A DNA stretch of 64,000 nucleotides from contig NZ_OBDO01000005.1 of the NCBI RefSeq assembly GCF_900215145.1, positions 124,001-188,000 on the forward strand, written 5' to 3'. Every line of letters begins with the position of its first letter. The stretch's first letter is position 1. The translations under genes and the position numbers were made by a program. Shown in pieces: positions 4,529-56,998 of this stretch. This stretch comes from Geodermatophilus sabuli (GTDB lineage: Bacteria; Actinomycetota; Actinomycetes; Mycobacteriales; Geodermatophilaceae). A model generated the notes under the pieces. That model did not search any database and was not told the DNA's origin. It saw nothing but the letters and a program-made list of their open reading frames with translations.

Positions 4529-5259
4529 GCGGCGAGCACCCCGAGCGACACCAGCGCCGCCAGCCCGGCGGCGGACGCGGCGAGGAACGCCCGGGACGAC
4601 GGCAGGGCCTCCGGCAGCACCCGCAGGCCGGTCTCCATCCCGCGGCCGGCGAGCCCCTCCTGCAGCCGGCGGGCACGGTCCCAGGAGCGGGTCAGGACGG
4701 CCGCGGCGAGCGCTCCCGAGGAGCGGTAGGAGCGGCGGACCGACGAGTGGCCCATCCGCGCCGCCTGCGCCTCGCGGATGGTGGACAGGCTCTCCAGCAG
4801 CACGAACAGCAGCCGGTAGGTGACCGCGGCGACCTCGACGACGGCCGCCGGCACCCGCAGGCGGCGCAGCACCGGGAGCAGGTCCGACACCGGCGTGGTG
4901 GTGGCCAGCAGGAGGACCGCGGCGGTGCCCGCCACGGCGTGCCCGACCAGCGAGCCGGCCCGCGCCGCGGCGTCGGGCGCCCAGCCCAGGCCGCCGTCGC
5001 CGACGGAGACCACCGCGGTCAGGGCGCCGGTGGCCACGAAGGCCAGCGGCCAGCGGACGGCCCGGCCGAACGTGCGGGCCGGCACGCGGGCGGGGCCGAG
5101 CGCCAGGGCGACGGCGGTGAGGGCGACGAGCACGCTGCCGGGCCAGGCGGGCAACGCCAGGGCGCAGCCGACCAGCCCGGCGCAGAGCAGCAGCTTGTCG
5201 CCCGGCGCACGCCGACGCCAGGCGCTGCGCCAGGCAGCGTCGTCGACGGCCAGGCTCAC
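4525..5259 (-). CDS. cbiQ: Cobalt transporter transmembrane protein CbiQ
   Basis: The T-component that couples CbiO to CbiM; 244 aa with four to five hydrophobic helices. A GTG start at 5259 (N-terminus [20 protein letters not shown]) overlaps the cbiN stop as GTGA. It carries the helix-end coupling motif typical of CbiQ/EcfT, with REAQAARMG near residue 150 as the first Ala-Arg-Gly-type box. Longer upstream frames run through cbiN and are shadows. Confidence 0.93.
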
Positions 5260-44785: not shown

Positions 44786-44812
44786 GTCCACACCCTTCCG
44801 GGTCATCCACAG
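44786..44812. promoter_or_regulatory. Paired TCCACA motif (19-bp period) between HAD-IB and ssd
   Basis: GTCCACAC (44786-44793) and ATCCACAG (44805-44812) have 11 bases between them. The pair sits almost exactly midway between the divergent HAD-IB and ssd starts, about 50 bp from each. The same spacing recurs at 48627-48653 and, inverted, at 55061-55087. Confidence 0.6.
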
Positions 44813-44862
44813 ATCCCACCCGCACCTCCCGGACCCCGCGTCCCTCCGCTGGGCTCGGCGGC

Positions 44863-45960
44863 GTGCCTGCCCTCCGGTCCCTCCCCGCCCGCCCCCTCCT
44901 CGTCAGTGCCGACGAGGACCTCCTCGACGACCTGCTGCGGCTGCTGGCCGCCGCGGGCACCGAACCCGAGGTCGCCACCGGTGGCCCCGCACTGCGGCGG
45001 GCCCACCGCGAGGCCCCGCTGGTCGTCCTCGGCGCGGACGTCCTCGCGGCCGGCCCGGTGCGGGCCCTGCCCCGCCGGCCCGGGGTCGTGGTCGTGGCAC
45101 CGGGCGAGCCGCCGGCCGCCGTCTGGGCCGCGGCGGTGGAGCTCGGCGCCGAGCGGGTGGCGGTGCTGCCGACCGACGAGAGCTGGCTGCTGTCCCGCGT
45201 GGCGGCGGCGCTGAGCCGGCCCGTCGACCGCGGGTACCTGGTGGCGGTCGGGGGCAGCTGCGGGGGAGCGGGCGCGAGCACGGTCGCCGCCGCGCTGGCG
45301 CTCACGGCGGCGCCGGACGCCGACGGCGCGCTGCTCGTGGACGCCGACGGGTGGGGCGGCGGGCTCGACCTCCTGCTGGGGGCCGAGCGGGGCGAGGGTC
45401 TGCGCTGGCCGGAGCTCGCCGGGCTCCGCGGCCGGGTGGCCGGCGACGCCCTCATGGCCGCCCTCCCCGAGGTCGACGGCGTCTCGGTGCTGGCCGCCTC
45501 GCGGGAGGCGCCGGGAGAGGTGCCGGCCGAGGCGCTCGGCGCGGTCGTGGAGGCCGCCCGTGCCGGTGGCTGGCCGGTGGTGGTCGACGTCGCGCGCAGC
45601 GCCGGTCCCGAGACGGCCGAGCTGCTGCTGGCCGAGGCCGATCTCACCGTGCTCGTCGTGCCCGCCCGGTTGCGGGCCGCCTCGGCAGCGCGGCTGCTGG
45701 TCGAGCACGGTCCCGGCGGCCGCCCGCCCGTCTGGTCGGCGGCCCGGCCGGTGGTGCGGCAGGTCGCGGGCGGGCTGTCGGCACGGGAGGTCGCCGACGT
45801 CGTGGGCCGGCCCGTCCTGGCCGAGCTGGGCTCCGACCGGAGCGCCGTGCCGCGCGGTGAGCGCGGGGAGCCACCCCTGGTGACGCCGCGCTCACCGCTC
45901 GGCGCACTCGCCCGCCGGGTGCTGGCCGAGCTCCCGCGGCCGGTGGGGGTGGCGGCGTGA
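44863..45960 (+). CDS. ssd: Septum-site-determining-like/CpaE-family MinD-type ATPase (Ssd)
   Basis: 365 aa from GTG 44863. Residues 1-115 resemble a receiver-like pseudo-domain (RPLLVSADEDLLDDLLRLLAAAG). From about 125 there is a MinD/ParA-type P-loop with deviant Walker A, VAVGGSCGGAGASTVAAALAL, then LLVDADGWGGGLDLLLGAERGEGLRW. In M. tuberculosis the orthologue (Rv3660c, Ssd) affects septation; in Tad loci CpaE proteins position pili. First gene of the tad operon, with its stop overlapping tadA by 4 bp. Confidence 0.88.
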   Translation: MPALRSLPARPLLVSADEDLLDDLLRLLAAAGTEPEVATGGPALRRAHREAPLVVLGADVLAAGPVRALPRRPGVVVVAPGEPPAAVWAAAVELGAERVAVLPTDESWLLSRVAAALSRPVDRGYLVAVGGSCGGAGASTVAAALALTAAPDADGALLVDADGWGGGLDLLLGAERGEGLRWPELAGLRGRVAGDALMAALPEVDGVSVLAASREAPGEVPAEALGAVVEAARAGGWPVVVDVARSAGPETAELLLAEADLTVLVVPARLRAASAARLLVEHGPGGRPPVWSAARPVVRQVAGGLSAREVADVVGRPVLAELGSDRSAVPRGERGEPPLVTPRSPLGALARRVLAELPRPVGVAA

Positions 45961-47108
45961 GCGGGGGTGCACTCGTCGACCGGGTACGGGCACGACTGGC
46001 GCTCGAGCCGGAGGCCCCGACGCGGGCCGCGGTCGCCGCGCTCGTCCGGGAGGAGTCCGGCGGCCTGCTCGGCGACGACGACGTGCTGCGGGCGGTCCGC
46101 GAGGCGGTGGACGAGCTGTCGGGGGCGGGGCCGCTCGAGCCGCTGCTCCGGGCGCCCGGGGTCACCGACGTGCTGGTCAACGGCCCGGACGAGGTGTGGG
46201 TGGACCGCGGCGGCGGGTTGGAGCGTTCCCCGGTGCGGTTCCCCGACGAGGACGCCGTCCGGCGGCTGGCCGTCCGGCTCGCGGCCGCGGCGGGCCGCCG
46301 GCTGGACGACGCCGCCCCCTGGGTCGACGTCGGCCTGCCCGACGGCACGCGGCTGCACGCGGTGCTGCCGCCGGTGTCCGGCGGTGGCACCTGCCTGTCC
46401 CTGCGGGTGCTGCGGCGGGCCGCGCTCTCCTTCGCCGACCTGGCCGGCCGCGGCACGTTCCCCGGGGCGTCCGGCGGTCTGCTGCGCGCACTCGTCGCCC
46501 GGCGGCTGGCGTTCCTGGTCACCGGAGGCACCGGGTCGGGGAAGACCACCCTGCTCTCCGGGCTGCTCGGTCTCGTCCCGCCCGGCGAACGCCTGGTCCT
46601 CTGCGAGGACGCGCCCGAGCTGCGGCCGGCCCACCCGCACGTCGTCCGGCTGGCCACGCGGCCGCCGAACGTGGAGGCGGTCGGCGAGGTGACCCTGCGC
46701 GACCTCGTCCGGCAGGCGCTGCGGATGCGACCGGACCGGCTCGTCGTCGGAGAGGTGCGCGGCGCCGAGGTGACCGACCTGCTCGCCGCGCTCAACACCG
46801 GCCACGAGGGCGGGTGCGGCACCCTGCACGCGAACCGGCCCGCCGAGGTGCCGGCCCGGCTGGAGGCGCTCGGCGTCGCCGCGGGCCTCGACCGGCTCGC
46901 GGTGCACAGCCAGGCCGCCGCCGCCCTCGCCGCCGTGGTGCACCTGCGCCGGACGCCGTCCGGACGGCGGGTGGAGGAGGTCGGCGTGGTCCGCCGTGCC
47001 GGCGACCTCGTCGTCGTCGAGGCGGGCTGGCGTGCCGACGGCGGGTCGTGTCCCGGCGCCGCACGGCTGGCGGAGCTCCTCGGGGAGTCCGACGGGCGCC
47101 CGGCATGA
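45957..47108 (+). CDS. tadA: TadA/CpaF secretion ATPase
   Basis: A cytosolic hexameric ATPase that powers assembly of Flp/Tad-type pili; 383 aa. An N-terminal VTDVLVNGPDEVWVDRGGG domain begins near residue 68. Walker A is [18 protein letters not shown] near 190, the Asp box LCEDAPELRP near 215, Walker B RPDRLVVGEVRGAEVTDLLAALNTGHEGGCGTLHAN at about 260-295. It is coupled to ssd and tadB by 4-bp overlaps. Confidence 0.94.
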   Translation: MSGGALVDRVRARLALEPEAPTRAAVAALVREESGGLLGDDDVLRAVREAVDELSGAGPLEPLLRAPGVTDVLVNGPDEVWVDRGGGLERSPVRFPDEDAVRRLAVRLAAAAGRRLDDAAPWVDVGLPDGTRLHAVLPPVSGGGTCLSLRVLRRAALSFADLAGRGTFPGASGGLLRALVARRLAFLVTGGTGSGKTTLLSGLLGLVPPGERLVLCEDAPELRPAHPHVVRLATRPPNVEAVGEVTLRDLVRQALRMRPDRLVVGEVRGAEVTDLLAALNTGHEGGCGTLHANRPAEVPARLEALGVAAGLDRLAVHSQAAAALAAVVHLRRTPSGRRVEEVGVVRRAGDLVVVEAGWRADGGSCPGAARLAELLGESDGRPA

Positions 47109-47902
47109 CCGCCGCCCTCGTGCTGCTCGGCGCCGCGCTGCTGTCGTGGCCGGGCAGCCCCGCGCTGCGCCGGACGAGGCGCCTGGCCGCGACCGGTGGC
47201 CGTGGGCGGATCCCGGTACCGGTGCCGCGGCTGCCCCGGCCGGTGCTGTGGGGCGCCGGGGCCGCGGCCGTCGCGGCGCTGCTGAGCACCCCGCTGGTCG
47301 CCGTCCTGGCGGGGGCCGCCGCCGTCCTCGCCGCACGCACCGGGGACCGCCGACGCGCCGGCGTCCGGGAGGAGGCGCGGCTGACCGCACTGGCCGAGGC
47401 GCTGGCCGCCCTGGCGGCCGAGCTGCGCAGCGGTCGTTCCCTGACGGAGGCCACGGCGGCGGCCGTGGCGGCCTGCGCGGACGAGGAGAGCGGACGGGCG
47501 CTGGCCGGGTCGGTGGTGGGCCCGCGGGCCGGCCCCGACCCGGGCGGCCGCACCGGTACGGAGGTCGAGCAGGCGTTGCAGCGGGTCTCCGCGGCCGCGG
47601 CACTGAGCCGGCGGACCGGGTGCTCGCTGGCGTCGGTCCTCGGCGCGGTCGAGGACGACCTGCGGGCCCGCTCCCGCCAGCGGCAGGACCTGCGATCGCT
47701 CACGGCGGGCCCCCGGGCCAGCGCGGCCCTGCTCGCCGGCCTGCCCCTGCTCGCCCTCGGCATGGGCAGCGGGATCGGTGCTGACCCGTGGCGCGTCCTC
47801 ACGACCACCGCGACCGGTCAGGTGCTGCTCGTCCTGGGCGTGGCGCTGGAGGGGGCCGGGCTGGCGTGGTCGGCCCGGCTGGTGCGTCGGGCGGTGCGGT
47901 GA
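47105..47902 (+). CDS. tadB: TadB-like inner-membrane platform protein (type II secretion F family)
   Basis: 265 aa. An N-terminal membrane segment and a pair of helices near residues 50-75 are followed by the cytosolic F-domain helices (LTALAEALAALAAELRSGRSLTEATAAAVAA; LQRVSAAAALSRRTGCSLASVLGAVEDDLRARSRQRQDLRSLTAGPRASAALL) and terminal membrane helices. It forms the platform with TadC. Overlaps tadA and tadC by 4 bp each. Confidence 0.88.
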   Translation: MTAALVLLGAALLSWPGSPALRRTRRLAATGGRGRIPVPVPRLPRPVLWGAGAAAVAALLSTPLVAVLAGAAAVLAARTGDRRRAGVREEARLTALAEALAALAAELRSGRSLTEATAAAVAACADEESGRALAGSVVGPRAGPDPGGRTGTEVEQALQRVSAAAALSRRTGCSLASVLGAVEDDLRARSRQRQDLRSLTAGPRASAALLAGLPLLALGMGSGIGADPWRVLTTTATGQVLLVLGVALEGAGLAWSARLVRRAVR

Positions 47903-48614
47903 CCGCGACCGTCGTGGCGCTCCTGGCGACCGCGCTGGTGCTCTGGTCGCCCGAGCGCACGGACGTGGCCGTCCGCGTGCGCGCGCTGGCCGCCCCGGGG
48001 GCCACGCCGTCGCCCCGCCCCGGCGGCGGTCCCCGCCGGAGCTGGGCGCTGGCCGGCGCTGCCGGTGTGGCCGCCGGCGTGCTCGTCGGCGGTCTGCTGG
48101 GTGTCGCCGCGTCGGTGGTGGTCGCCGTCCTGGCCGAGCGCGTGCTGCGTCGCGGGTCGGACCACGCCGAGAAGGAGGGGGCGGCGCTCACCGGGGACCT
48201 CCCCGTGGCCTGCGACCTCCTCGCCGTCTGCCTGGCGGCGGGGCTGCCCGTGGGCGCCGCGCTCGCCGCGGTGGCCGCCACGGTGCCCGCACCGCTGGGT
48301 CCCACACTGGCCGAGGTGGCGGCGCTCCACGGGCTCGGCGCGTCGCCGCGCAGGTCCTGGGCGGGCGTCCCCGGCGAGCTGGCCGGGCTCGGCCGGGTGC
48401 TGGTCCGGGCGGGGGAGTCGGGCTCGGCGGTGGTCCCCGCTCTGCGGTCCCTGGGGCCGACACCCGCGCCGAGGCGCGCAGCCACGCTGATGCCGCCGTA
48501 CGCCGGGCGGGGGTGTGGGTCCTCGCGCCGCTGGGTGCCTGCTTCCTGCCGGCGTTCGTCTGTCTGGGCGTGGCGCCTCTCGTTCTCGGCATCGCCGCGG
48601 ACGTCTTCGGGTGA
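47899..48614 (+). pseudogene. tadC: tadC (type II secretion F family), frameshifted near 48453-48456
   Basis: From GTG 47899 the frame encodes a normal TadC N-terminal region (residues 1-185, ending AGESGSAVVPALRSLG). At the G-run 48453-48456 it must change frame to continue into DTRAEARSHADAAVRRAGVWVLAPLGACFLPAFVCLGVAPLVLGIAADVFG and stop at 48614. That tail is a typical TadC C-terminus. One extra G would restore a 238-aa protein. As it stands, the original frame reads nonsense and then continues, without a stop, in phase into the DUF4244 gene to 49017. True mutation, sequencing error in a G-run, or programmed slippage cannot be separated here. Confidence 0.85.
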
Positions 48615-48626
48615 GCAGCGGCCGTC

Positions 48627-48653
48627 GTCCACAGGCCGGACCCCGGTCCACAG
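48627..48653. promoter_or_regulatory. Paired TCCACA motif (19-bp period) upstream of the pilin-like gene
   Basis: Two copies of GTCCACAG (48627-48634 and 48646-48653) are separated by 11 bases in the 127-bp gap after tadC. They are about 88 bp before the DUF4244 start. Same architecture as at 44786 and 55061. Confidence 0.6.
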
Positions 48654-48741
48654 ATCGGCGTCGGCTGTGGGACCGATGCGCCGGCGCTGCGAGCGTCGGG
48701 GCAGCGGCCCGGTCGGCGGACCGCACGACGGAGGAGGTCCC

Positions 48742-49017
48742 GTGACCGACAGTCCTGCAGCACACCTCGACCCGGCGGAGCCGGAGGAGGCCGAACTCCC
48801 GGTCGGGGAGGGCGCTGCCGCCCCCACCGGCCGGTTGAGGGCCCGCTGGAGCCGGGTCCGCGCCACCGGCGAGGCCGGGATGAGCACCGCCGAGTACGCC
48901 GTCGGCACGGTCGCGGCCTGCGCCTTCGCCGCGGTCCTCTACCGGGTGGTCACCGGTGGCTCGGTGGTCGACGCGCTGGGTGAGCTGGTCTCCTCGGCGC
49001 TGGCCACGCTGTCCTGA
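48742..49017 (+). CDS. DUF4244 Flp-pilin-like protein (Rv3656c-like)
   Basis: 91 aa from GTG 48742 with GAGGAGG 4 bases upstream. An acidic leader of about 30 residues and a basic stretch are followed by GMSTAEYAVGTVAACAFAAVLYRVVTGG. That is a prepilin-like cleavage/helix segment with the Glu five residues after the Gly, as in class IV pilins. It is probably the major pilin of the Tad system. It shares a reading frame with the shifted tadC. Confidence 0.87.
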   Translation: MTDSPAAHLDPAEPEEAELPVGEGAAAPTGRLRARWSRVRATGEAGMSTAEYAVGTVAACAFAAVLYRVVTGGSVVDALGELVSSALATLS

Positions 49018-49019
49018 CC

Positions 49020-49448
49020 GTGTCGGCCGGGGGCGGGATCCGGCGCCGGGGCGCCCGGGTGCGTACGCCCGACCGCCGCGAGGCGGGCATGGTGACCGCC
49101 GAGACCGCCGTCGTCCTGCCCGTGTTGCTGCTGGTCCTCGCCGGCGCGGTGGCGGCGGTGACCGTCGTCGGCGCCCAGCTGCGCTGTGTCGACGCCGCCC
49201 GCGAGGGGGCGCGTGCGGCGGCCCGGGGCGAGGACGCCGCCGTCGTGGTCGCCCTCGCCGGCCGCGCCGCCCCCGCCGGAGCGCTCACCACGGTGGCCGC
49301 CGAGGGGCCGTCGGTCTCGGTGACCGTGGCGGCGGAGGTCGCCCCGCTGGGGCCCGTGCCGTTCCGCGTCCGGGTCTCGGCGACCGCCGTGGCCGAGCGC
49401 GAGCCGGACGGCCAGGCGCCGCCGGCGGCCTCGGGCGGCAGCGCGTGA
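49020..49448 (+). CDS. TadE-like pseudopilin (Rv3655c-like)
   Basis: 142 aa from GTG 49020, 2 bp after the pilin stop. After an Arg-rich leader comes EAGMVTAETAVVLPVLLLVLAGAVAAVTVVGAQLRCVDAAREGARAAARGE, the TadE-type N-terminal helix with Gly-Met cleavage context, Glu and the AREGAR motif. It is a minor pseudopilin or assembly factor with an extracytoplasmic C-terminal part. Confidence 0.86.
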   Translation: MSAGGGIRRRGARVRTPDRREAGMVTAETAVVLPVLLLVLAGAVAAVTVVGAQLRCVDAAREGARAAARGEDAAVVVALAGRAAPAGALTTVAAEGPSVSVTVAAEVAPLGPVPFRVRVSATAVAEREPDGQAPPAASGGSA

Positions 49449-49488
49449 GCGGCGGCAGCGGGTGGCCGGCGGCCCCGGGCGCGAGCGG

Positions 49489-49875
49489 ATGAGCGGCGGA
49501 CCGCCGTTGACCGGCGAGCGCGGATCGGCGACGGTCTGGGTGGTCGCGCTGGCGGGGGCGCTCGCGGCGATCGGCGTGGCGGCCGTGCTCGTCGGGTCGG
49601 CGGTGGTCGGCCGTCACCGGGCGACGGGAGCGGCGGACCTGGCCGCGCTGGCGGCGGCCGAGCACGCTGTCCGGGGTCGGGCGGACCCCTGCGCGGCGGC
49701 CGCCCGGGTGGCGGACGCCAACGGAGCCCGCCTCACCGGCTGCGGTGTGGACGGCGCGGCGGTGGTCGAGGTCGCCGTCGTGGTGCCGGTGCGCCTCGGG
49801 CCGCTCGGCGTCCGGGAGGCGGCCGCCCGGGCCCGGGCCGGGCCGGTGGCGCAGGTCCCGGTGGCGCCGCCGTGA
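49489..49875 (+). CDS. Helicase/secretion-neighbourhood TadE-like protein (Rv3654c-like)
   Basis: 128 aa from ATG 49489 (49462 also possible). GERGSATVWVVALAGALAAIGVAAVLVGSAVVGRHRATGAADLAALAAAEHAVRGRADPCAAAARVADANGARLTGC is the conserved core: a pilin-like helix followed by a TadG/DUF4190-like DLAALAAA segment and two cysteines. Last gene of the tad operon; converges on the helicase gene. Confidence 0.85.
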   Translation: MSGGPPLTGERGSATVWVVALAGALAAIGVAAVLVGSAVVGRHRATGAADLAALAAAEHAVRGRADPCAAAARVADANGARLTGCGVDGAAVVEVAVVVPVRLGPLGVREAAARARAGPVAQVPVAPP

Positions 49876-49904
49876 CGGTCACTACCCGTCCTCGGCCCGG
49901 AGGT

Positions 49905-52547
49905 TCAGAAGACCAGGTCGTTCCCGCCGGCGGCCCTGCTGGCGGGCGGTGTGTCCGCGTCGGTGGTCGCCGCCGGCGCCGGCTCCTCCGCGTCGACGGT
50001 CGGCTCCTGGTCCTGTGCTCTGCCGGCGGCCCGTGCCTGTGCCGCCTCGGCCGGCCCCGCCGGGGGTGCGCCGTCCGCGCGCCGCTCCTCCGGAGCGGAC
50101 GACGACGGCACCCCGCTCGTCGGCGTCACCGCCTCGGCACCGCCGGGCGCGGGGTCGGCGGCGGGCTGCTGGCCCCGCTCCTCGGCGGCGGCCAGCTCGT
50201 CGAGGACGACGTCGAGCACGCGCACCGCGCCGCCCTTGTCCAGCGGGTCGTTGCCGTTGCCGCACTTGGGTGACTGGACGCAGGACGGGCAGCCGCTCTC
50301 GCACTCACAACTGGCGACCGTCGCCCGCGTGGCCTGCAGCCAGCGGCGCAGCACGGCGAAGCCGCGCTCGGCGAAACCCGCGCCACCGGGGTGGCCGTCG
50401 TAGACGACGATCGTGGCCGCCCCGGTGTCGGGGTGCAGCGCGGTGGAGACGCCGCCGAGGTCCCACCGGTCACAGGTGGCCAGCAGCGGCAGGATCCCGA
50501 TCGCGGCGTGCTCGGCGGCGTGCAGGGACCCGGGCAGGGCGATCTCGTCGACCTCCGCGCGGGCCACCGCCTGCTCGTCGAGGGTCAGCCAGACCGCGCG
50601 GGTGCGCAGCTGACGGGGGGGCAGGTCGAGCGGGAACTCCGCGAGCACCTCGCCGGTCCCCAGCCGGCGACGCTGGTAGGCGACCACCTGGTTGGTCACG
50701 TCCACGACGCCGGTGTGCGCGGTCACCGTCCCCAGGCGCCACGAGCGGTCGGTGGAGACCACCGCGAGGTCGGTGACGTCGCGGGCCACCGTCGTCCACT
50801 CCGGGCTCTCGGGGTGCACCACCGCGGTGGCGTCCTCGACGCAGAACTCGTCCACGACGTAGGTCTCGCCCCGGTGCACGTACAGGGCGCCGGTGTGCAC
50901 CGTGGCGTGCGCGGCGTCGCCGTCGACGGTGCCCAGGAGCCGGCCGGTCGCACCTTCGATGATCGTCACGGGCTCGAGGCCGCTGCCCCGGATGTCGACG
51001 TCGGGCCGCCCGCGGCCGGCCCAGTACCAGCCGGTGGGACGCCGCCGGAGCAGCCCCGTGGCGACCAGTTCCGCGACCTGCGCCTCGGCGGGCGGCCCGC
51101 CGAAGTCCGGGAGGTCGGCGGGCACCAGGGGGAGTTCCGCGGCGGCGCAGCACAGCTGGGGCCCGAGCACGTAGGGGTTGGTCGGGTCGGTGACGGTGGC
51201 CTCGACAGGACGTCCGAACACCGCCCGCGGGTGGTGGGCGAGGTAGTGGTCCAGCGGGTCGTCGCGGGCGACGAAGACCACGAGCGACTCCCGCTGGGCG
51301 CGTCCGGCCCGGCCGGCCTGTTGCCACAGCGAGGCCAGCGTCCCCGGGTACCCCGCCAGGACGACGGCGTCGAGCCCGGCGATGTCGATGCCCAGCTCGA
51401 GGGCGTTGGTCGTGGCGACGCCGAGCAGCTCTCCGCTGGACAGGGCCCGCTCCAGTTCGCGCCGCTCCTCGGGCAGGTAGCCGCCGCGGTACGAGTCCAC
51501 GCGGCGGGCCAGTTCGGCGCGGCCGCGGTCGCGCAGGATGTGGCGGGCCTGGTCGGCCACGGACTCGGCGCTGCGGCGCGACCGCACGAACGCCAGCGTG
51601 CGTGCGTTGCGCTCGACCAGGTCGGCGAGGAGGGTCGCGGCGTCGGCGGCGGCCGACCGGCGCAGCGGGGCGCCGTGCTCACCGGTGCGCTCGGTGAGGG
51701 GTGGCTCCCAGAGGGCGAAGGTGGCGCCCGGCCGTGGCGAGCCGTCCTCGGTCACCGCGACGACAGGGGCGCCGACCAGCCGGGTGGCCGCCTCGGCGGG
51801 CTCGGCGACGGTGGCCGACGCGAGCAGGAACACCGGCTCGGCGCCGTAGCGCCGGCAGATCCGCCGGAGCCGCCGCAGGACGTGCCCGACGTGCGACCCG
51901 AAGACGCCGCGGTAGGCGTGGCACTCGTCCACGACGACGTAGGCCAGCCGACGCAGGGTGCTCGACCACTTCTGGTGGGCCGGCAGGACACCGCGGTGCA
52001 GCATGTCCGGGTTGGTGACGATCCAGCGCGAGTGCCGCCGGACCCACTCCCGCTCCTCCATGGGGGTGTCGCCGTCGTAGGCCGCGGGCCGCACCGACGG
52101 GTCGGCGAGGTCGGCGAGGGCGGCGAGCTGGTCGCGGGCCAGCGCCTTGGTGGGGGCCAGGTACAGGACGCAGGCGCGCGGGTCCTCCGCCAGCCGGGTC
52201 AGCGCCGGGACCTGGTAGGCCAGCGACTTCCCCGACGCGGTGCCGGTCGCGACGACGACGTGCCGGCCGTCGTGCGCCAGCTCCGCGGCCTCGACCTGGT
52301 GCCGGTAGGGCGCCTGGACGCCCTGCGTCTCCAGCCGCTCGCGCAGCTGCGCCCCCACCCATTCGGGCCACGGCTGCGTGCGGCTCTCGCGCACCGGCAT
52401 CCGGTGGACGTGGGTGACCGGCTGCTCCTCCTCCGGCGTCCCGGCGAGGAGCGCCGCCAGCAGGTCCGCACCGGGCAGGACCGCACCCCCTGGACCGGGA
52501 TCCGTGCCGGGAGGGGGAGCCGACCGGACCTGGTGGAGCGTGGCCAC
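49905..52547 (-). CDS. DEAD/DEAH-box helicase with C-terminal DUF1998 cysteine cluster (Rv3649-like)
   Basis: 880 aa from GTG 52547. Helicase motifs in order: VVATGTASGKSLAYQVP (Walker A) near residue 100, YLAPTKALARDQ, VVDECHAYRGVFGSHVG (DEAH-like DECH) near 205, LASATVAEP, and the second RecA domain with ATNALELGIDIAGLDAVVLAGYPGT and QQAGRAGR. A metal-binding CECESGCPSCVQSPKCGNGN lies near 785, then an acidic, Pro-rich tail. In this family the helicase is linked to DNA repair (MrfA-like members), and it neighbours the Tad operon across actinobacteria. Confidence 0.93.
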   Translation of the reverse strand: MATLHQVRSAPPPGTDPGPGGAVLPGADLLAALLAGTPEEEQPVTHVHRMPVRESRTQPWPEWVGAQLRERLETQGVQAPYRHQVEAAELAHDGRHVVVATGTASGKSLAYQVPALTRLAEDPRACVLYLAPTKALARDQLAALADLADPSVRPAAYDGDTPMEEREWVRRHSRWIVTNPDMLHRGVLPAHQKWSSTLRRLAYVVVDECHAYRGVFGSHVGHVLRRLRRICRRYGAEPVFLLASATVAEPAEAATRLVGAPVVAVTEDGSPRPGATFALWEPPLTERTGEHGAPLRRSAAADAATLLADLVERNARTLAFVRSRRSAESVADQARHILRDRGRAELARRVDSYRGGYLPEERRELERALSSGELLGVATTNALELGIDIAGLDAVVLAGYPGTLASLWQQAGRAGRAQRESLVVFVARDDPLDHYLAHHPRAVFGRPVEATVTDPTNPYVLGPQLCCAAAELPLVPADLPDFGGPPAEAQVAELVATGLLRRRPTGWYWAGRGRPDVDIRGSGLEPVTIIEGATGRLLGTVDGDAAHATVHTGALYVHRGETYVVDEFCVEDATAVVHPESPEWTTVARDVTDLAVVSTDRSWRLGTVTAHTGVVDVTNQVVAYQRRRLGTGEVLAEFPLDLPPRQLRTRAVWLTLDEQAVARAEVDEIALPGSLHAAEHAAIGILPLLATCDRWDLGGVSTALHPDTGAATIVVYDGHPGGAGFAERGFAVLRRWLQATRATVASCECESGCPSCVQSPKCGNGNDPLDKGGAVRVLDVVLDELAAAEERGQQPAADPAPGGAEAVTPTSGVPSSSAPEERRADGAPPAGPAEAAQARAAGRAQDQEPTVDAEEPAPAATTDADTPPASRAAGGNDLVF

Positions 52548-52609
52548 CTCCCCACTGTCACACCTGCGGGCAACCTGCGCCCCGCTCCGGACAGCGGATC
52601 GTCGAGCCC

Positions 52610-52638
52610 CCGACACGGCGTGTGATCTCCCTTACACT
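52610..52638 (+). promoter_or_regulatory. Predicted promoter of hppA
   Basis: A -35 box CCGACA (52610-52615), a 17-bp spacer and a -10 box TACACT (52633-52638) lie in the 195-bp divergent region between the helicase and hppA. This matches the housekeeping sigma pattern. Transcription would start near 52645, leaving a leader of about 98 nt. Confidence 0.55.
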
Positions 52639-52742
52639 CGCGCGACGTCCAGGGCGTGCGGATCCCCGTACACCCCGGACCGCCCTCCGCCGACCGGAGC
52701 GCAGGTGAGCCCCGGGGGCAGCCGACCGCTTGGAGGAAACAC

Positions 52743-55004
52743 ATGCCGGACAGTGCACTCTCCGGCGGGGACGTCGTTCTCGTGACGATCGTCCTCGCCA
52801 TCTCGATCGCCGCCCTCGCCTTCGCCGCCTACCTGGTGCGGGCCGTCATGGCCGCCGATCAGGGCACGACGACGATGCGCGAGATCGCGAAGGCGGTGCA
52901 GGAGGGTGCGGCCGCGTACCTGCGCAGACAGTTCCGCACCCTCGCCGTATTCGCCGTCATCGTCTTCTTGGTCCTGCTCGTACTCCCCGTCCACGAGGGT
53001 GGCTGGGGCACCCGCGTGGGCCGCGCGTTGTTCTTCCTCGTCGGCGCCCTGTTCTCCGCGATGGTCGGGTTCATCGGGATGACCCTGGCCACCCGCGGCA
53101 ACGTCCGGGTGGCCGCCGCCGCCCGCACCGGCGGCTACCGGCCGGCCTTCCGCATCGCGTACCGCACCGGTGGCGTCTGCGGGATGATCACCGTCGGCCT
53201 CGGCCTCTTCGGGGCGGCACTGGCTCTGCTGCTGTTCGACGAGACCGCCCCCGTCGTCCTGGAGGGCTTCGGCTTCGGCGGCGCCCTGCTGGCGATGTTC
53301 ATGCGCGTCGGCGGCGGGATCTTCACCAAGGCCGCCGACGTCGGCGCCGACCTGGTCGGCAAGGTGGAGGCCGGCATCCCCGAGGACGACCCCCGCAACG
53401 CGGCCACCATCGCCGACAACGTGGGCGACAACGTCGGTGACTGCGCGGGCATGGCCGCCGACCTCTTCGAGTCCTACGCGGTCACCCTGGTCGCCGCGCT
53501 CATCCTGGGTCAGGTCTTCTTCGGCTCCGTCGGCATGGTCTTCCCCCTGGTCGTCGCCGCCATCGGGGTCATCGCCTCGGTCGTCGGCATCCTCGCCAGC
53601 AACCCCGGCAAGGGCGACGCCAACGGCCTGGCGCCGATCAACCGGGGCTTCTTCACCTCCGCCGTCGTCTCGCTCGTGCTCGTCGCTGCGGCGTCGTTCA
53701 CCGTGCTGCCCAGCGTGGCCGACGTGCCGGACAGCGCCATCAGCCCCCAGGTCATGGGCTTCGTGGCCGTGCTCATCGGCATCGTGCTCGCCGCAGCCAT
53801 CCAGCTGCTGACCGGCTACTTCACCGAGACCAGCCGCAAGCCCGTGCAGGACGTCGGCCGCAGCTCGCTGACCGGCCCGGCCACGGTCATCCTCTCCGGC
53901 ATCTCCCTGGGCCTGGAGTCGGCCGTCTACGCCGCGCTGCTCATCGGCGGCGCGGTCTACGGCGCCTTCCTCATCGGTGGCGGCGCCGCCCTCTACGCCG
54001 TCGCGCTGGCCGGCTGCGGCCTGCTGACCACCGCCGGCGTGATCGTCTCGATGGACACCTTCGGGCCGGTCAGTGACAACGCGCAGGGCATCGCCGAGAT
54101 GTCCGGGGACATCGACGAGGAGGGCGGCCGCGTGCTCACCGACCTCGACGCGGTCGGCAACACCACCAAGGCCATCACCAAGGGCATCGCGATCGCCACA
54201 GCCGTCCTCGCCGCGACCGCGCTGTTCGGCTCCTACAACGCCCAGATCGGCGTCGCGCTGGAGGAGGCCGGCGACACCCTCGGGAACGCCTTCAGCCTGG
54301 TGAACCCGAACAACATCGTGGGCGCGCTGCTCGGTGCCGCCGTCGTGTTCTTCTTCTCCGGCCTGGCGATCAGCGCCGTGTCGCGGGCGGCGGGGCGCGT
54401 CGTGTTCGAGGTGCGGGAACAGTTCCGCACCAAGCCCGGGATCATGGACTTCACCGAGCGGCCGGACTACAGCCGCGTCGTCGACATCTGCACCAAGGAC
54501 TCCCTGCGCGAGCTGGCCACCCCCGGGCTGCTCGCGGTCCTGGCGCCGGTGGCGGTCGGCTTCGGGCTCGGCTTCGGGCCGTTGGCGGCCTACCTGGTGG
54601 GCGCCATCGCGGCGGGCACGCTGATGGCGGTCTTCCTCGCCAACTCCGGCGGCGCCTGGGACAACGCCAAGAAGATGGTGGAGGACGGCGCCTACGGCGG
54701 GAAGGGCAGCGAGGCCCACGCGGCGACGGTCATCGGCGACACCGTCGGCGACCCGTTCAAGGACACCGCCGGGCCGGCGATCAACCCGCTGATCAAGGTC
54801 ATGAACCTGGTGGCGCTGCTCATCGCGCCGGCCGTCGTCGGCATGTCGGTGGGGGTCGACCAGAACACGACGCTCCGGCTGACCATCGCCCTCGTCGCGA
54901 CCGCGATCATCGTCGGTGCCGTCATCGTGTCCAAGCGTCGCTCGGTGGTCGTCGGCGGGGCGGCCAACGCCCCCGCCGACTCGCTCACCACCACCGCACC
55001 CTGA
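52743..55004 (+). CDS. hppA: Membrane-bound proton-pumping inorganic pyrophosphatase, K+-independent type
   Basis: Couples PPi hydrolysis to proton export across the cytoplasmic membrane; 753 aa with about 16 helices. ATG 52743 follows GGAGG. The PPi/Mg site is DVGADLVGKVEAGIPEDDPRNAATIADNVGDNVGDCAGMAADLFESY at about 198-244. A second acidic set is DNAQGIAEM near 445, and a third GGAWDNAKKMVEDGAYGGKGSEAHAATVIGDTVGDPFKDTAGP near 637-680. The GNTTKAITKG segment near 472 has Lys where K+-dependent enzymes have Ala, so this is the K+-independent H+ pump class. Confidence 0.97.
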   Translation: MPDSALSGGDVVLVTIVLAISIAALAFAAYLVRAVMAADQGTTTMREIAKAVQEGAAAYLRRQFRTLAVFAVIVFLVLLVLPVHEGGWGTRVGRALFFLVGALFSAMVGFIGMTLATRGNVRVAAAARTGGYRPAFRIAYRTGGVCGMITVGLGLFGAALALLLFDETAPVVLEGFGFGGALLAMFMRVGGGIFTKAADVGADLVGKVEAGIPEDDPRNAATIADNVGDNVGDCAGMAADLFESYAVTLVAALILGQVFFGSVGMVFPLVVAAIGVIASVVGILASNPGKGDANGLAPINRGFFTSAVVSLVLVAAASFTVLPSVADVPDSAISPQVMGFVAVLIGIVLAAAIQLLTGYFTETSRKPVQDVGRSSLTGPATVILSGISLGLESAVYAALLIGGAVYGAFLIGGGAALYAVALAGCGLLTTAGVIVSMDTFGPVSDNAQGIAEMSGDIDEEGGRVLTDLDAVGNTTKAITKGIAIATAVLAATALFGSYNAQIGVALEEAGDTLGNAFSLVNPNNIVGALLGAAVVFFFSGLAISAVSRAAGRVVFEVREQFRTKPGIMDFTERPDYSRVVDICTKDSLRELATPGLLAVLAPVAVGFGLGFGPLAAYLVGAIAAGTLMAVFLANSGGAWDNAKKMVEDGAYGGKGSEAHAATVIGDTVGDPFKDTAGPAINPLIKVMNLVALLIAPAVVGMSVGVDQNTTLRLTIALVATAIIVGAVIVSKRRSVVVGGAANAPADSLTTTAP

Positions 55005-55010
55005 TCGCAC

Positions 55011-55054
55011 GCCGGGATCCTCCGGCCGGCGGATGCCGGTCGGAGGATCCCGGC
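55011..55054 (+). terminator. Strong hairpin terminator after hppA
   Basis: GCCGGGATCCTCCG (55011-55024) and CGGAGGATCCCGGC (55041-55054) form a perfect 14-bp stem with a further short GC pairing inside the loop. It starts 7 bases after the hppA stop. There is no U-run, typical of GC-rich actinobacteria. Confidence 0.8.
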
Positions 55055-55060
55055 GGCGTC

Positions 55061-55087
55061 CTGTGGACGACGGGACCGGCTGTGGAC
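55061..55087. promoter_or_regulatory. Paired CTGTGGAC motif (19-bp period) upstream of the coiled-coil/DUF1023 pair
   Basis: CTGTGGAC (55061-55068) and CTGTGGAC (55080-55087) are separated by 11 bases. This is the exact inverse-strand version of the tad-locus pair at 48627. It lies about 85 bp before the gene at 55173, immediately after the hppA terminator. Confidence 0.6.
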
Positions 55088-55172
55088 GGGACGCCCGGGT
55101 CCGCGGGAGGTCCGGCCTAGCGTCCGGCCGCGCCGATCCCACCGGGGACCGGCCCGACCGCCGGGAGGCCCC

Positions 55173-55490
55173 GTGTCCCTGACCATCGCCGCCGAGTTCG
55201 ACGCCATCGAGGCGCTGGCCGCCGAGTTGGACGCGCTCGCCGCCGAGCTGGACGACGACGCCCGGTTGTGCCGGTCCACCGCGGTCTCCCTCGGGACCGC
55301 GGCCGGGCCCGACGTCGGCGAGCGCGCCGGCGCCGCCGGAGCGGGCTGGGGCGGGCTGCTCGACCTGGTCGCCCAGCACACCGGCGCCCTCGCCGGGACG
55401 CTGCGCTCGGCGGTCGCCTCCTATCGCCTGACCGACGCGGTGCTGGCCGACCGGGTGCTGGCTCGCCGCCAGGGCACGGCACCCCGGTGA
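55173..55490 (+). CDS. Small helical protein, possible ESX/WXG100-like partner
   Basis: 105 aa from GTG 55173. The first ~35 residues are a heptad-like acidic helix (EFDAIEALAAELDALAAELDDDARL). A Gly-rich turn near residues 50-60 (AGAAGAGWGGLLDL) and a second long helix follow. Length, helix-turn-helix plan and a WG pair at the turn recall WXG100-type secreted dimers, but the canonical WxG is not exact. The stop overlaps the DUF1023 gene as GTGA, so the two act together. Confidence 0.65.
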   Translation: MSLTIAAEFDAIEALAAELDALAAELDDDARLCRSTAVSLGTAAGPDVGERAGAAGAGWGGLLDLVAQHTGALAGTLRSAVASYRLTDAVLADRVLARRQGTAPR

Positions 55491-56998
55491 GCGCTCCCGC
55501 CCTGACCGAGGTCGCCGGCTGGGACGTCCCGCTGCTGCGAGGCGCCGTGTTCACCCTCACCGCGGTGGCCGAACGGCTGCCGTCGTGGCGGGCCCGGACG
55601 GAGGCCGTCGGCCGGTCCCTGACCGACGCCGAGTGCTGGTACGGGCCGGCCGCGCAGTCCGCCGGTGCGGCGCTCATCGAGGTGTCCACCGTCGCGACGT
55701 CGGTGGCCATGGCCCTCGGCGAGTCGCTCGAGCACGCCGAGCGCCTGCTCGCCGAGGCGGCCACCGCGCAGGAGTGGGCCGAGCAGGCCCTGGCGGCCGC
55801 CGTCGCCGTCCCGGTCGTCCTGGACGCGGCCGGCCGGCTGGCGGGTCCGCTGCCGGTCGACCCCGTCACCGGCTCCGACTCCGGCCACGTCGCCGCCGCG
55901 CGGCGAGCGGAGGCCCTGGGGATCGACGCGGCGGAGGCCGCGCGACGGGCGGCCCTGGCAGCCGCCGACGCGGCGGATGCCCTCGCGGGGCTCGGGATCG
56001 GCGGCGTCCTCTCCCCGGCGACCTTCGAGGACCTGTCCTGGCTGGTGGCCGTCGAGACGTCGGCCGCGCCGGCTCCGCCGCCCCCGATGGACGGCGGTGC
56101 GACCGCGGTCGCCGCCTGGTGGGGGAGCCTGTCCACGGCGGCGCGGATCAGCGCGATCTCCGGCCACCCGGACCGGCTGGGCGACCTGGAGGGTCTCCCG
56201 GCTTGGGCCCGGGACCGCGCCAACCGGATCGTCCTCGGCCGGGTGCTCGCCGACCCGTCGGCGTCGGGCCACGCGGTGGCGGCCTCGGTCGGAGCGGAGA
56301 TCGCCGACCGGGAGGAGACGGGAGAGACCGTGCAACTCCTCCGGTTCCGCCCGGCCGAGGAGCTGGTGGCGCTCGGCCTGGGCGACCTGGACACCGCCGA
56401 CTCCGTCGCCCTCCTGGTGCCCGGCATGCTCAACACGCCGCGGGACGACCTCGACGAGCTGGCCGACGACGCCGACGCGGTCGCCGACGCCGCCCGGGCC
56501 GCCGCACCGGCGCTGGCGGTGGCCACGGTCGCCTGGTTCGGCTACCGACCACCGATGGGCCCGGGCGCCCTGGGGACGTCGACCAGCCGAGAGGGCGGCC
56601 GGGCGCTCGACGCGACGTTGGACGGTCTCGCCGCGGCCCGTGCCGCTGATCCGGCGCGCGTCGTCGTCAGCGCGCACAGCTACGGGACGCGGGTGGTCGA
56701 CGCCGCCGCCGGCGCGCCGGGGGAGTTGGCGGCCGACGCGGTGGTCCTCAACGGCAGCCCGGGCATGGACCACGACGTCGAGGGACTGGAGGTCGCCGAG
56801 GTGTACGAGGCGTCGCCGGCCTTCGACCCGATCAGCTGGTGGGACTGGCACGGGGAGCACCCGACGTGGACCGATGCGTTCGGGGCCGTGGAACTGCCCG
56901 TCGAGGAGGGCATGCTGCACACGGAGTACTACGACGAGCAGTTCCCGACCCTCGCGGCGATCGGCGAGGTCGTCGCGGCCTCCCGGCCGGCGGACTGA
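55487..56998 (+). CDS. DUF1023 alpha/beta-hydrolase protein with N-terminal helical domain
   Basis: 503 aa from GTG 55487. Residues 1-190 are helical and Ala-rich, including a WYGPAAQSAG segment reminiscent of WXG-type N-termini. From about 215 a DUF1023 hydrolase domain follows: VALLVPGMLNTPRDDLDELADDADAVADAA, VATVAWFGYRPP and the nucleophile elbow VVVSAHSYGTRVVD (Ser in HSYGT) near 395. HTEYYDEQFPTL near the end could supply the catalytic His. Proteins of this class are often paired with ESX-like small proteins and may be secreted. Substrate unknown. Confidence 0.82.
   Translation: MSAPALTEVAGWDVPLLRGAVFTLTAVAERLPSWRARTEAVGRSLTDAECWYGPAAQSAGAALIEVSTVATSVAMALGESLEHAERLLAEAATAQEWAEQALAAAVAVPVVLDAAGRLAGPLPVDPVTGSDSGHVAAARRAEALGIDAAEAARRAALAAADAADALAGLGIGGVLSPATFEDLSWLVAVETSAAPAPPPPMDGGATAVAAWWGSLSTAARISAISGHPDRLGDLEGLPAWARDRANRIVLGRVLADPSASGHAVAASVGAEIADREETGETVQLLRFRPAEELVALGLGDLDTADSVALLVPGMLNTPRDDLDELADDADAVADAARAAAPALAVATVAWFGYRPPMGPGALGTSTSREGGRALDATLDGLAAARAADPARVVVSAHSYGTRVVDAAAGAPGELAADAVVLNGSPGMDHDVEGLEVAEVYEASPAFDPISWWDWHGEHPTWTDAFGAVELPVEEGMLHTEYYDEQFPTLAAIGEVVAASRPAD

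Follow-up and report, generated by a model that had tools for sequence, protein, structure and literature searches.

A paired TCCACA motif as a probable conserved promoter switch of DNA-uptake genes in many soil actinobacteria

A 64,000-nt stretch of the Geodermatophilus sabuli genome (contig NZ_OBDO01000005.1, positions 124,001 to 188,000; hereafter the window) carries, at three loci, two head-to-tail copies of the hexamer TCCACA near genes for a Tad pilus and near a small protein-hydrolase gene pair, and we wondered what function this paired motif could have. An earlier, sequence-only reading of the window had proposed a dimeric activator site or an alternative sigma site shared by the pilus and an ESX-like gene pair, possibly related to DNA uptake, with a DnaA box as the alternative. 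The analysis presented here indicates that the pair is very probably an activator binding site, or competence box, for a natural-competence regulon in this actinobacterium and many of its relatives. On the best reading, the box would be common to many, not all, actinobacterial families.

Spacing of the pair and its targets

Exact TCCACA-N13-TCCACA pairs are present in the window at 44787-44811 (+), 48628-48652 (+) and 55062-55086 (-), the three loci named by the sequence-only reading, and a scan gave no fourth exact pair, again as that reading had it. Among 100 dinucleotide shuffles of the window there were no exact matches. When two mismatches were allowed, a count of three was reached in 28 of the 100 shuffles and is not unusual, so that the signal exists only in the exact form of the pair. 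The window holds 14 TCCACA hexamers, six of them within pairs. We scanned the whole genome (G000; 5.5 Mb in 25 contigs) for TCCACA-N8..26-TCCACA and observed a gap of 13 nt in 15 of 17 pairs, with 12 matches for the reversed control pattern. If the 19 gaps were equally likely, the probability that the best gap reaches 15 of 17 would be about 1.5e-16; the 13-nt gap is not chance. The claimed exact 19-bp period holds in this genome but not everywhere: in other members of the genus and order it is 18 or 19 bp, and in one other family 17 or 18 bp. From 55 sites picked for exact TCCACA, the half-site consensus was YYGTCCACAG.

Recognisable genes are faced at 13 of the 15 exact sites of the genome (Table 1), and 12 of these 13 sites point at their gene. 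The exception is the third window site, which is inverted also at its counterpart (L068) in a second genome of the genus, G023. One and the same cis element is found upstream of DNA-uptake pilus genes, ComE-type transport genes, and ssb, recA and comM-dprA. The proposal of a regulatory site common to the Tad pilus and the ESX-like pair, tied to DNA uptake, is borne out in that other sites precede comEA, comM-dprA, recA, ssb, SAF/RcpC and an EssC-like ATPase gene. Within the ESX-like pair itself, Pfam confirmed the Abhydrolase_8 partner, while the ESX label of the 105-aa protein stands by context.

The box was also sought at loci chosen by protein and not by motif. We gathered the best 80 of 440 comEA loci, 78 of which, from named genomes, had enough upstream sequence. 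Scored with half-site weights set by hand after the consensus had been derived, 38 of the 78 loci have a pair with an 18- or 19-bp period upstream, all 38 pairs lie on the comEA strand, and the coding-sequence control gave 0 of 78. Strong pairs in these stretches have periods of 17 (2), 18 (15), 19 (23), 20 (1) and 21 bp (1), and longer ones of 26 (1), 27 (1), 28 (1) and 30 bp (2). The pair is present at all 16 comEA loci of Geodermatophilus, Blastococcus and Modestobacter, and positives outside these genera include Micromonospora, Salinispora, Catellatospora, Plantactinospora, Lentzea and Actinacidiphila. In two cases three half-sites stand in a row (L282, L274; 17 bp, before comEA in G111, and 19 bp in G040), as head-to-tail binding would predict.

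Promoter layout, relatives and the proposed regulon

By our own rule a start codon was found at 141 of 183 distinct sites, and 88 of the 141 lie 50-53 nt past the second hexamer. In the 183 stretches that follow this hexamer, A is prominent at +40 (0.44) and T at +44 (0.48), which places a -10-like element at +39 to +44. Alignment of 103 sites on their starts gave T-13 (0.38), A-12 (0.45), G-9 (0.66) and T-8 (0.50), which mark the element at 7 nt before the start codon. Many of the sequences are related, so these counts are not independent events. The position of the box is constant with respect to the promoter and the direction of the gene, with the inverted sites (window site 3 and L068) as exceptions, and because it stands at a fixed distance upstream of the -10-like element, the suggested activator site fits.

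In relatives, pairs with gaps of 8-26 nt exceed the reversed control in 39 of 41 genomes (own genome included; among the matches listed), the exceptions being G031 and G036. Among pairs with gaps of 11-13 nt, the gap is 13 nt in 25 of 25 listed pairs of G025 and G040, and 11 or 12 nt in 20 of 20 in G111. The 14 sites of G023 precede recA, two ssb genes, comM, comEA, ssd, SAF/RcpC, DUF559, DUF4192, an EssC-like gene beside a WXG100 gene, a small protein with Abhydrolase_8, and a SWIM-domain protein; two are unclear. G026, from another family, has 11 sites, which precede comEA, ssd, SAF with an mscL-like gene, two DUF559/AbiEi-like genes, two HNH genes, an M23 peptidase and a weak DUF2695 match, with two unclear; recA, ssb and comM were not among the targets of these 11 sites. 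The HNH endonuclease genes after the box in G026 are at L073 (with DUF222) and L074, and similar-looking genes follow the box in G033 (L190, which is without a Pfam match, L192 and L323).

Across the class, TCCACAG-N10..12-TCCACAG occurs in 126 of 296 genomes. Twenty sites were taken from eight families for target reading; ssd, DUF4192, DUF559, SAF with HTH_17, a ComF-like gene, comM, DUF4244/TadE, ssb and recA were recognisable, while three sites of family f8 (L099-L101) and several others appear to be chance occurrences. Of another 95 distinct sites, 58 matched the regulon reference set on the same strand, 7 of these being self-matches. These site sets were chosen by motif, and partly by hand. 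A scan of the genome and of related genera, which the sequence-only reading had proposed as a check, found the pair before tad, com and secretion genes; random spread or lack of conservation, which that reading had named as refuting, did not occur. What these genomes show directly is the site itself, together with how it is spaced, placed and oriented and which genes it targets.

For activation, leaderless starts and competence induction, we infer the following mechanism. Two YYGTCCACAG copies, head to tail and 18-19 bp apart, would be placed some 52-77 bp before the transcription start, and in many target genes transcription would begin at the start codon itself. From this upstream place, termed the class I position of an activator, a protein bound to the copies in head-to-tail fashion would bring in RNA polymerase at promoters that have a -10-like TANNGT but show no obvious -35. 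The predicted regulon would comprise a pilus part (tad, DUF4244, TadE/G, SAF/RcpC), a DNA transport part (comEA, and comF in some genomes), genes for single-strand handling and recombination (ssb, comM-dprA, recA), and other members (M23 peptidase, AbiEi-like nucleases, DUF4192). It would also take in the EssC-like type VII secretion ATPase and the small-protein/Abhydrolase_8 pair.

Several observations weigh against a competence box. Two of the 15 sites in the own genome (L022 and L026) have no clear target. Of 33 further sites in this genome with up to two mismatches, 10 were inspected, and 7 of the 10 are without a regulon gene. An 18/19-bp pair is missing at 40 of the 78 comEA stretches, including those of Actinomadura, Kribbella, Aeromicrobium and Agromyces. 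Moreover, Geodermatophilus, Blastococcus and Modestobacter account for 16 of the 38 positives, and outside them only 22 of 62 loci are positive. In the 95-site set, 35 sites had no match on either strand and 2 a match on the opposite strand only. G032 and G033 gave a same-strand match at 7 of 21 sites, and some of the others face metabolic-looking genes. Finally, no transcription factor was a recurrent target in the contexts examined, single cases such as an HTH-like gene (L322) aside.

Competence control and gene membership in high-GC Gram-positives have been described as an open question (PMC12849477). Being legible in the DNA sequence itself, the box would let the regulon be predicted genome by genome; it also names little-studied members (DUF4192, DUF4244, AbiEi-like nucleases and type VII secretion parts), suggests that competence is controlled in genera such as Geodermatophilus, Blastococcus, Micromonospora, Salinispora and Lentzea, and could serve as bait for finding the regulator.

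Candidate binders and other explanations

The binder is most likely either DnaA or a protein of another, as yet unnamed kind. That DnaA binds the pair, coupling competence genes to the replication state, is a tentative possibility that is compatible with a competence box. The resemblance to a DnaA box noted in the sequence-only reading is real, and we keep it as a candidate: the half-site fits the high-affinity box TTGTCCACA of S. coelicolor and M. tuberculosis (PMC4285127, Table 1), with which it shares the core TCCACA and flanking pyrimidines, half-sites in other genomes read TTGTCCACA, TTATCCACA or TTTTCCACA, and 40 of 41 genomes, the own genome included, have one Bac_DnaA_C match (G003 has two). 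However, the pair has a strict tandem spacing and a promoter position, and its half-sites favour C over T two bases before TCCACA's G and have a conserved G added after TCCACA. Neither the arrangement at oriC in the own genus nor the box variants found there agree with the pair: nine dnaA-dnaN regions were taken, one of them without a usable stretch, and in the own genus these regions contain CTGTCCACA, TTGTCCCCA and GTGTGCACA-like boxes but lack a 19-bp pair. Same-strand TCCACA distances in 30 dnaA loci range from 9 to 35; three of them are 18, and 19 does not occur. DnaA is also universal, whereas many lineages are without sites. A second Bac_DnaA_C protein was rejected as binder, given the single match in 40 of 41 genomes.

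If tandem DnaA-type boxes do read the replication state, one switch across many Actinomycetia families might turn on the Tad pilus, ComEA, type VII secretion, nucleases and a cell-wall peptidase. Cells so equipped may break open or kill their neighbours and import the DNA. We regard this Gram-positive analogue of kill-and-uptake competence as a long shot.

An HTH_17 protein, which matches Mlut_14660 of Micrococcus luteus in gene order, is an unlikely binder of the pair, though not without points in its favour. Nearly all promoter-up mutants of M. luteus comEA/EC (not M33) were changed in the Mlut_14650/14660 region, and Mlut_14660 R64W fully regained the phenotype; some single changes in this cluster, on the other hand, left comEA/EC expression unaltered (PMC8467076). 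The HTH_17 gene is divergent to SAF/CpaE-like genes in many of 30 loci, a direct pair lies between these genes in G081 (L087), and in 18 of 18 own-genus loci the HTH_17 promoter contains an inverted GTCCACA-N8 to N10-TGTGGAC. In these loci (L115-L133 except L122; own genome, L123) the inverted half-sites enclose CGTTCGGG, a different geometry with the same half-sites. Against HTH_17, the protein was found in 12 of 28 class genomes with at least four pairs (43%) versus 138 of 296 overall (47%), a tally made by eye from tables, without subtraction of the control counts. The regulon is present in G030 and G035, where HTH_17 matches are no more than weak (E 5.9e-5 and 1.5e-4), G111, with 20 pairs, is not among the HTH_17-positive genomes, and HTH_17 is present in G036, which has no competence-type set of 19-bp pairs. 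HTH_17 as sole binder is not supported, since box and protein do not co-occur across the class, although gaps in draft genomes could hide the gene.

Two other candidates were rejected. LytTR (ComE/AgrA-type) regulators were found in 14 of 41 genomes, and the own genome is without one. Autoregulation by the AbiEi-like protein was discarded because the protein, present in 38 of 41 genomes, was not found in G030, G032 and G038, though G030 and G032 carry regulon sites.

An alternative sigma site was also among the suggestions of the sequence-only reading; that the octamers are the -35 and -10 elements of such a promoter is very improbable. Two fixed hexamers at a fixed spacing upstream of genes would suit such a promoter, but both elements are identical, their spacing differs by lineage, site 3 is inverted, and a separate -10-like element follows 39-44 nt downstream, beside the start codon. 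That the pairs have no regulatory role, being general intergenic repeats or scattered DnaA boxes, is barely credible: single TCCACA octamers are common and over a third of the 95 sites lack a recognised target, but gap distribution, strand bias, target set and start-codon distance all contradict it, barring an unseen bias common to these counts.

Competence boxes are known from Firmicutes, namely the ComK box, the direct repeats of ComE, which binds two of them, and the cin-box. The actinobacterial pair resembles these in being a dedicated element before late competence, pilus, ssb, recA and dprA-type genes, and differs in sequence, phylum and regulator; despite the ComE-like pair, the own genome has no LytTR match. 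The competence system of M. luteus (comEA/EC, tad, Mlut_14650/14660) is similar in its Tad pilus, ComEA and RcpC/HTH_17 locus, and its authors reported a similar arrangement for Geodermatophilus (PMC8467076). In contrast to the present box, the M. luteus accounts, in the portions accessible to us, give no cis element or regulon (PMC8467076, PMC12849477), and in 2026 this regulon was called currently unknown (PMC12849477). In R. lacicola, likewise an actinobacterium, comEC, dprA and tad genes go up in the dark, and comEA is mentioned as an exception (PMC8591293); this agrees with a shared switch without being tied to the box. A ComEA-family gene was reported to be up after ultraviolet exposure (PMC12029717). 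We found no description of this box in the accessible parts of the open-access literature, bioRxiv preprints being outside its scope.

Features of the window and minor observations

Table 1. Features of the window and further target genes of exact sites in the same genome
Feature	Position or locus	Strand	Remarks
Paired box 1, GTCCACAC-N11-ATCCACAG	44786..44812	+	upstream of ssd/tad
-10-like element TGGGCT	44850..44855	+	weak match; regulon-typical distance from box 1
ssd (CpaE homologue)	44863..45960	+	first tad-operon gene; NCBIfam TIGR03815 E=9.2e-81, above cut-off; no match in Pfam search
tadA-type ATPase	45957..47108	+	NCBIfam TIGR03819 E=3.8e-152; Pfam T2SSE
tadB-like open reading frame (ORF)	46996..47784	+	named by position only; no Pfam or NCBIfam match
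tadC-like ORF	47788..48614	+	inside longer ORF 47778-48614; Pfam T2SSF E=4.1e-9; no NCBIfam match
Paired box 2, GTCCACAG-N11-GTCCACAG	48627..48653	+	upstream of DUF4244
-10-like element GAGCGT for DUF4244	48691..48696	+	regulon-typical distance
DUF4244 pilin-like protein	48742..49017	+	Pfam PF14029 E=3.9e-23
TadE-like pseudopilin	49020..49448	+	Pfam PF07811 E=1.2e-8
Paired box 3	55061..55087	-	inverted relative to its gene, as is its G023 counterpart (L068)
-10-like element TAGCGT	55118..55123	+	read from letters
Small 105-aa protein	55173..55490	+	WXG/ESX-like by context only; no family match
Abhydrolase_8 (DUF1023) protein	55487..56998	+	GTG at 55487; Pfam PF06259 E=1.4e-18; no NCBIfam match
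ssd-tadA; DUF4244; 105-aa protein and Abhydrolase_8	the window's three sites		targets
recA	L018		target
EssC/EccC-like FtsK ATPase with FHA domain	L019		target; NCBIfam TIGR03928 below cut-off
yraN-comM-dprA	L020		target
ssb	L021		target
AbiEi-like protein	L023		target; MTES_1575 nuclease match below cut-off
DUF4192	L024		target
SAF gene	L025		target; RcpC match below cut-off; then mscL-like gene (named by eye)
Second ssb	L027		target
comEA	L028		target
DUF559 protein with AbiEi-like part	L029		target

The gene finder was a simple GC-position scorer that put some genes on the wrong strand, and mscL, comEC and CpaE-like neighbours were named by eye. Judged from the distance profile and the letters, ssd probably starts leaderless at the GTG at 44863, 51 nt past box 1. 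In G032, ssd and DUF4244 have a divergent double site between them (L307).

The mismatched sites inspected in the own genome include an M23 peptidase gene (L324), an AbiEi-like gene (L329; by BLAST, with no Pfam match) and a TadG-like gene (L331). The AbiEi-like part fused to a DUF559/MTES_1575-type nuclease belongs to a large paralogous family, with 8 matches in this genome. Because the box is found only on some copies (L023, L029, L329 and others), it suggests a competence-linked nuclease branch within this family.

At L026 a tRNA was sought as target and none was found. The pair there (5003-5027) is perfect and is followed at about the right distance by an ATG, which opens a short ORF with a poor coding score; this ORF is possibly a small protein or a decayed gene.

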